Part shown: piece after piece, positions 25,764 to 38,979 of the stretch | How positions within the stretch are numbered: position 1 is the first letter of the stretch | Layout of the letters: each line of letters opens with the position of its first letter | Position numbers and translations under genes: made by a program | Assembly (NCBI GenBank): GCA_902526565.1 | Contig: CABZLP010000005.1 | Coordinates: forward strand, 1-62,439 | DNA: 62,439 nt | DNA from: an uncultured Pelagibacteraceae bacterium | GTDB lineage: Bacteria; Pseudomonadota; Alphaproteobacteria; Pelagibacterales; AG-422-B15 | Reading direction: 5' to 3' | Notes under the pieces: model-generated | The model's input: only the letters and a program-made list of their open reading frames with translations | What the model was told of the DNA's origin: nothing | Database searches by the model: none

Positions 25764-25779
25764 CTTTTTATGAATGAAG

Positions 25780-26033
25780 TGGGAGACTTCTGTTGCCCGG
25801 TGCCTCCCGAACCGCGCTTACCTAATTAGATTAAGCAGCGAGCGCTAATTTATTGTTAGCATTTAAAAGTTAGCCCGATAACGGCGGTACAATGCCGAGA
25901 GAAAAACTTACCTTTAATCATTCGTCGATCCTGTATCACCCCCTAAAAAATGGTGGAGGTGCCGGGTACCGCCCCCGGGTCCGTAATGGGTATTATATAA
26001 GCCGTTTATCTCTATAGCTGGGATATCCCCAGC
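25780..26033 (-). ncRNA. ssrA: Transfer-messenger RNA, circularly permuted two-piece form (alpha-type)
   Basis: Read on the minus strand, an acceptor segment comes first and ends in CACCTCCACCA (3' end 25951). Seven bases later a coding segment begins with GGGGGTG (5' end 25943). GGGGGTG and CACCTCC form a seven-pair acceptor stem containing the G3-U70 wobble used for alanylation. CCGGG/CCCGG gives the T-arm and GATACAGGATCGACG the D-loop analogue. The coding piece carries a resume reading frame at 25860-25831, GCT...TAA, encoding ANNKLALAA, followed by a GGGAG/CTCCC pseudoknot-like stem. CCA lying before the 5' G shows circular permutation, as in alphaproteobacteria. Outer ends are approximate; a hairpin at 26017-26033 probably marks the start of the acceptor piece. 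Confidence 0.93.
25831..25860 (-). other. tmRNA proteolysis-tag reading frame (ANNKLALAA, stop)
   Basis: Ten codons on the minus strand: GCT AAC AAT AAA TTA GCG, then CTC GCT GCT TAA. With the alanine carried by tmRNA the full tag would be AANNKLALAA. The ALAA ending is the usual ClpXP/ClpAP degron. At nine encoded residues it is short compared with well-known alphaproteobacterial tags such as the Caulobacter one. Confidence 0.9.
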
Positions 26034-26114
26034 AATCTGAATATAGTTTGATATTGAATCTTTTTAAAGAGGCTATTCTTATTATAATATGCCATTAATA
26101 TTTGATTCACAAAA

Positions 26115-36085: not shown

Positions 36086-36207
36086 TAGACTCAAAAGATA
36101 TGATATAGCCCAATATTTAGGCAATTTTGAGTAATTTATTGCGAATTTAGCAATATTCATATATTTATCCATTATCTTTGAAATTAATTAAAGTGCATAA
36201 TTTTGCT

Positions 36208-36309
36208 ATGAAAAAAATATATATTAGTAATTTTTTTAATTCTTTAAGAGAATGCACTCTTCAATCTCTCTTGCTGTTAAAACTGCTTAGCAGCCCCCGG
36301 GCGACTTAA
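36208..36309 (+). CDS. leuL: Leucine-rich leader peptide of leuA attenuator (33 residues)
   Basis: A short ORF begins MKKIYISNFF and contains LQSLLLLKLLSS: six Leu codons within seven (CTC TTG CTG TTA AAA CTG CTT at 36268-36288), then SPRAT and a stop. It sits 61 bases before leuA and runs into a GC-rich hairpin, the standard layout of a ribosome-mediated leucine attenuator. Five different Leu codons are used, so several tRNA-Leu species would be sensed. Translation and function are inferred, but the Leu run directly before a hairpin is very unlikely by chance. Confidence 0.8.
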   Translation: MKKIYISNFFNSLRECTLQSLLLLKLLSSPRAT

Positions 36310-36340
36310 AACTTGCCTCAGGGGGATTCTTAATTTTAAC
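36294..36340 (+). terminator. Attenuator hairpin upstream of leuA
   Basis: CCCCC (36294-36298) pairs with GGGGG (36321-36325), and GGGC (36299-36302 region) with GCC (36315-36317), giving a strong GC-rich stem in AT-rich DNA, followed by ATTCTTAATTTT. The upstream GCTG (36273-36276) and CTGC (36283-36286), inside the Leu codons, can pair with CAGC/GCAG at 36290-36294, so ribosome position over the Leu codons can change the fold. Together with the leader peptide this accounts for most of the 300-base gap between ilvC and leuA; nothing else is recognised there. Confidence 0.7.
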
Positions 36341-36370
36341 ACAATTAACATATAACCAAGGGATTTAAAG

Positions 36371-38979
<2,609 letters not shown>

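Follow-up and report, generated by a model that had tools for sequence, protein, structure and literature searches.

The leuA locus of this genome raises the question of whether a short leucine-rich reading frame upstream of the gene senses leucine and, if it does, at which step it acts. The DNA analysed, hereafter the window, is a stretch of 62,439 nucleotides from a SAR11 genome; its relatives have been recorded as single-cell genomes of Pelagibacteraceae. SAR11 bacteria count among the sea's most numerous cells and possess few transcription factors; the streamlined nature of these genomes agrees with the preliminary description of the locus, which had expected a genome with few regulators. 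We suggest that the locus carries a leucine-responsive leader-peptide element of leuA that is widespread in Alphaproteobacteria and probably acts on translation initiation, a reading to which we give a probability of about 0.57. If this is true, a leucine sensor borne by the mRNA would explain a response of leuA without any transcription factor, and the presence of the same element in other alphaproteobacteria makes the proposal testable in ordinary laboratory species.

The leader reading frame and its leucine codons

In the window, leuA (36371 to 37921, plus strand) encodes a 2-isopropylmalate synthase matching TIGR00973 with 703.9 bits, above the cut-off of 598.7 bits. It is preceded by ilvB-ilvH-ilvC and followed by mreB, these neighbours having been named from their sequences without a family search. 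Elsewhere, the minus strand carries a tmRNA gene of the alphaproteobacterial (permuted) type (25778 to 26072).

The leader ORF (36208 to 36309, plus strand) runs from an ATG at 36208 to 36210 to a TAA at 36307 to 36309 and encodes a peptide of 33 aa, MKKIYISNFFNSLRECTLQSLLLLKLLSSPRAT. Its Leu run, CTC TTG CTG TTA AAA CTG CTT (36268 to 36288, plus strand), comprises six Leu codons of five kinds among seven codons, exactly as had been reported in the preliminary description, whose coordinates are confirmed. The same holds for the GC-rich hairpin, here called P3 (36294 to 36325), directly before which the ORF and its run had been placed, and the region, which had been said to fold in alternative ways, folds better than shuffled sequences (z -2.9). 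Taken by itself, a six-in-seven Leu run is rare without being unique, and chance can yield one: seven codon windows of this kind are found when the 62 kb window is translated in all six frames, and dinucleotide shuffling of the 300-nt intergenic region reached the same density in 11 of 3000 cases. It is conservation that sets this leader above chance.

Conservation within SAR11

Every SAR11 relative of this family whose upstream sequence is long enough keeps the leader ORF and the hairpin. The reading frame and the start position are conserved, the start codon being ATG or GTG depending on the clade, and the codon that follows the start is variable. Across 33 SAR11 relatives, the six Leu positions contain a single non-Leu codon (CGA in L044) and five of the six show synonymous codon changes, while the middle residue of the run, at position 5, varies among K, N, D and E. 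The conservation of the Leu run and the hairpin in relatives, which had been put forward as a check of the locus, was found, together with that of the reading frame. The leader is absent from the leuA loci of the other SAR11 family (f2) and from those of OCS116/Rhodobiaceae.

Some side observations concern these last two groups. In the OCS116/Rhodobiaceae genomes (L076 to L083), ilvC is followed almost directly by leuA. In the other SAR11 family (L031, L069 to L073 and L078), we could discern by eye a repeated promoter-proximal motif upstream of leuA, roughly TTTTGCAATCT-N5-GAGATTGTATNAT, which is partly palindromic and possibly an operator. The last 30 nt before leuA in one genome (L073) contain a tiny ORF, ATG CTT CTG CTA AAT TTA TTA AAA TGA (MLLLNLLK), which overlaps the leuA start and is perhaps due to chance.

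Distribution across Alphaproteobacteria

The class-wide set of 152 genomes provided 69 leuA loci outside the family of the window, and in 37 of them we identified a leucine-rich ORF ending in the same kind of hairpin, with the consensus CUUA-NNN-GCCCC-UGA...UCAGGGG. A search pattern composed of the hairpin and the stop codon, which ignores Leu content and thereby avoids selection by Leu, matched 20 of the 152 genomes, with one match each, and a reversed control pattern matched none. All 20 matches sit directly upstream of leuA and have at least 35 open codons in frame; furthermore, Leu accounts for 34% of the 12 codons that precede the stop in its own frame, compared with 8% and 5% when the other two frames are read (p 2e-4). 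This pattern superseded a first class-wide one, the spacing of which was too strict (1 match in 385). Model R1, built on SAR11 only, gave weak scores at the same site in L089, L090 and L092 and was too narrow for use across the class.

No Rfam family matched over the leader, either at the gathering score in the window or at E values up to 1 in seven loci, and the Pfam and NCBIfam profiles provided no leader-peptide family, their one insignificant match (E 0.076) being to an unrelated subfamily. In the open-access literature we found no leuA leader in Alphaproteobacteria; some of these leaders may be listed in Vitreschak et al. 2004 (FEMS Microbiol Lett 234:357). The leu genes receive no mention in a survey of structured RNAs in Pelagibacter ubique (PMC2704228). 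The ORF, the Leu run, the position of the stop and P3 are conserved and specifically linked to leuA and, as judged from the sequences, it appears nearly certain that they constitute a leucine leader-peptide sensor for leuA across the class.

The hairpin P3 and the leader stop codon

P3 (plus strand) is formed by the arm segments 36294 to 36298 with 36321 to 36325 and 36299 to 36304 with 36313 to 36318, and it contains the leader stop codon. Covariation is seen both in SAR11 and class-wide, where 92.5% of the cells are paired, seven pairs are changed on both sides and double-change cells number 45 against 11.3 in shuffles (0 of 500); these values are biased upward for pairs 1 to 6, because the 3' arm was located partly through the complementarity of its first six bases, and are free of this bias for pairs 7 to 10 (alignment A2 omits the loop bases).

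In 41 of 53 leaders, the stop codon lies 4 nt into the 5' arm of P3. It follows that a ribosome finishing the leader sits on P3, and that one stalled at the Leu codons leaves P3 free. The 8 nt after the hairpin include at least five U in 9 of the 53 leaders and none or one in 15, with the window being borderline at 5 of 8. A standard terminator scan, which is blind to a hairpin with the internal loop of P3, returned none in the window, and masked folds of the window, in a search that was not exhaustive, gave no mutually exclusive antiterminator using an arm of P3. Since a U-tract is not consistently present and the stop codon of the leader falls within the 5' arm, P3 is unlikely to be the regulated terminator.

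P3 is followed by a nearly invariant tract, CTTAATTTTAACACAAT (36329 to 36345, plus strand; alignment A1), which is conserved family-wide beyond what Shine-Dalgarno pairing requires. A pseudoknot between the P3 loop and this tract is possible in the window; by eye it is absent from clade B and other SAR11 clades, and it was discarded.

Predicted pairing between the Leu run and the leuA Shine-Dalgarno

Folding of the window predicts that the segment UCUCUUG, where the Leu run begins (36267 to 36273, plus strand), pairs with the leuA Shine-Dalgarno segment CAAGGGA (36357 to 36363, plus strand), with a probability of 0.93 in the free RNA. The predicted probability that the Shine-Dalgarno is unpaired is 0.04 in the free RNA, 0.70 when a ribosome occupies the Leu codons and 0.05 when one stands at the stop, and this pattern is robust to the 5' end assumed.

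Some pairing of this kind is automatic, because Leu codons are pyrimidine-rich and Shine-Dalgarno sequences purine-rich. Since the composition of the Leu codons could have this effect, we ran a swap test, in which the Leu run and Shine-Dalgarno of each genome were compared with swapped pairs. Class-wide, cognate pairs were better than swapped ones, with a composition-corrected z of -4.8 against -0.9 to -1.4 for the controls; in the low-GC subset, an upstream-ORF control scored as strongly, and among the seven SAR11 clade representatives alone the test was not significant (p 0.18). Moreover, reordering of the codons weakens the pairing (p 0.0035), with 3% of the codon-order shuffles being equally good in the window. 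Over 48 leaders, the accessibility of the Shine-Dalgarno-AUG region rises from 0.397 in the free RNA to 0.479 with the Leu run covered (p 9e-5), the rise being clear in only 28 of them, and it stays flat with a ribosome at the stop (0.403, p 0.87). The pairing is thus supported by statistics and by predicted folding.

The Leu run also pairs with the sequence after P3 better in cognate than in swapped combinations (class-wide, z -4.3), which suggests that the partner of the helix may differ between lineages. One such candidate, P2, in which UGUUAAAA (36275 to 36282, plus strand) can pair with UUUUAACA (36334 to 36341), has a predicted probability of only 0.13 in the window and is mismatched in L042; it was not retained.

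The 5' end of the transcript

A probable promoter on the plus strand (36139 to 36165) consists of TTGCGA (36139 to 36144), 15 nt and TATATT (36160 to 36165). A standard promoter scan did not pick it up; most clades of the family keep the pattern TTGNNA-15 nt-TATAWT at this place. In the preliminary description, a CATAAT hexamer six bases before the ATG had suggested a leaderless mRNA. The hexamer is where it was said to be but, different from the upstream promoter, it is lost in close relatives (L035 to L040) and in clade B, so that the leaderless start finds no backing in them. Judging from the sequence comparison, a 5' untranslated region of about 35 to 40 nt with a stem, P1, is likelier than a leaderless mRNA. 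P1 (36190 to 36199 with 36252 to 36261, hence 36190 to 36261, plus strand), for which the support is moderate, would enclose the leader start codon; its register is kept in 31 SAR11 relatives, with an A-U/U-A exchange at pair 10 and G-U/G-C variants, and it is unfavoured by the partition function of the window itself.

For an mRNA starting near 36170, the leuA AUG is predicted to pair with the 5' end whichever state is modelled, which counts against the mechanism proposed below. The outer helix considered here (36172 to 36182 with 36364 to 36374), of 11 bp in the window, was set aside, with a swap-test p of 0.105 over seven SAR11 clades. Similar pairs between the 5' end and the leuA AUG, for instance AUCUC/GAGAU, occur in several SAR11 clades.

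Proposed mechanism and rival explanations

With ample leucine, ribosomes would cross the Leu codons fast, finish at the stop inside P3 and leave. P3 would then refold and bring the Leu run beside the leuA Shine-Dalgarno, which would be hidden by pairing with it. With charged tRNA-Leu scarce, a ribosome would stall on the Leu run and cover that strand, leaving the Shine-Dalgarno free. We infer stalling, induction on starvation and control at the translational rather than the transcriptional level. If the proposal is true, the same nucleotides can carry both codon identity and anti-Shine-Dalgarno pairing.

The preliminary description had claimed ribosome-mediated attenuation. The evidence supports a leucine leader of leuA that is sensed by ribosomes. 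It does not support termination of the classical kind at the GC-rich hairpin, owing to U-tracts that are weak or absent in most relatives and to the leader stop codon inside the hairpin. In such a transcription attenuator, common in gammaproteobacterial leu operons (reviewed in PMC6123439), P3 would be an intrinsic terminator and a stalled ribosome would permit an antiterminator; the Leu run just upstream of P3 and, in the window, the GC-rich hairpin followed by AUUCUUAAUUUU would suit it. Besides the scarcity of U after P3 in the other leaders, the P3 arms showed no other pairing that was conserved, and the direction is wrong: it is the finishing ribosome that masks P3 and not the Leu-stalled one, so that a terminator at P3 would presumably shut off leuA in starvation. 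We consider this explanation rather unlikely. Termination between the leader and leuA could also depend on Rho and be governed by translation of the leader, which requires no U-tract, suits the GC-rich relatives and agrees with a hairpin-leuA gap of 37 to 146 nt; yet the gap in the window is short (46 nt) and AT-rich, an unsystematic search gave no conserved C-rich unstructured site, and the Leu-Shine-Dalgarno complementarity would be left unexplained, which makes this explanation unlikely too.

A further possibility, proposed for the LEU element of Actinobacteria (PMC1262725), is that P3 and its flanks bind a protein or a small molecule, with the Leu-rich ORF being incidental or having no more than a modulatory role. 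The near-invariant CUUA-NNN-GCCCC and, in SAR11, the CUUAAUUUUAACACA tract could be read in this way, but Leu enrichment is strictly limited to the frame that the conserved stop closes and the Leu codons change synonymously, and we regard a binding site of this kind as quite improbable. As to mere chance, by which the Leu run and the hairpin would be functionless, the recurrence of six-of-seven Leu runs in the six-frame window is in its favour; class-wide conservation and covariation refute it, leaving it a negligible probability. We keep to a leader peptide whose translation probably sets the access of ribosomes to leuA.

Comparison with known systems

The rhizobial trpL attenuator (peTrpL/rnTrpL; PMC10117765) resembles the leader described here in being a short ORF before an amino-acid gene in Alphaproteobacteria. 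It differs in that trpL is leaderless, whereas a longer 5' untranslated region is likelier here and the supposed leaderless start is unconserved. In erm-type translational attenuators, a stalled ribosome frees the hidden Shine-Dalgarno of the downstream gene, as is proposed here; their signal is a drug, whereas here it would be leucine shortage, read by the Leu codons.

The leuL attenuator of the enterobacterial leuABCD operon shares with our leader a Leu-containing peptide, encoded before leuA, through which the charging of tRNA-Leu is sensed. What leuL has is a terminator/antiterminator switch with a U-tract, while here the stop codon lies in the hairpin and the U-tract is inconsistent. Among the traits of classical attenuators, the sequences point to a conserved leader ORF in which the regulatory codon is abundant and which precedes a biosynthetic gene; the U-tract expected after an intrinsic terminator hairpin, in contrast, is lacking in most leaders, only the 9 of 53 mentioned above having at least five U in eight, with the window borderline. 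If our reading is true, the readout of leucine leaders would switch between transcription and translation.

The closest likeness is to the LEU element upstream of leuA in Actinobacteria, which combines a Leu-run upstream ORF with a base stem between the Leu run and the Shine-Dalgarno (Seliverstov et al. 2005, PMC1262725). Both systems have a Leu-run upstream ORF, regulate the same gene, leuA, and lack a clear terminator. The base stem around an internal structure is, in our case, indicated by prediction and by statistics that are not significant for SAR11 alone. The conserved core of the LEU element is a pseudoknot, in contrast to the simple hairpin with the leader stop codon found here. We would tentatively, and with somewhat less than even confidence, describe the alphaproteobacterial leader as an uncurated class-wide element with its stop codon inside the hairpin, which would control purely translation initiation through pairing of Leu codons with the Shine-Dalgarno and would have evolved independently or be anciently shared with the LEU element. 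On the basis of the published description, it may work like the actinobacterial element, a likeness by which we claim neither membership nor common descent.
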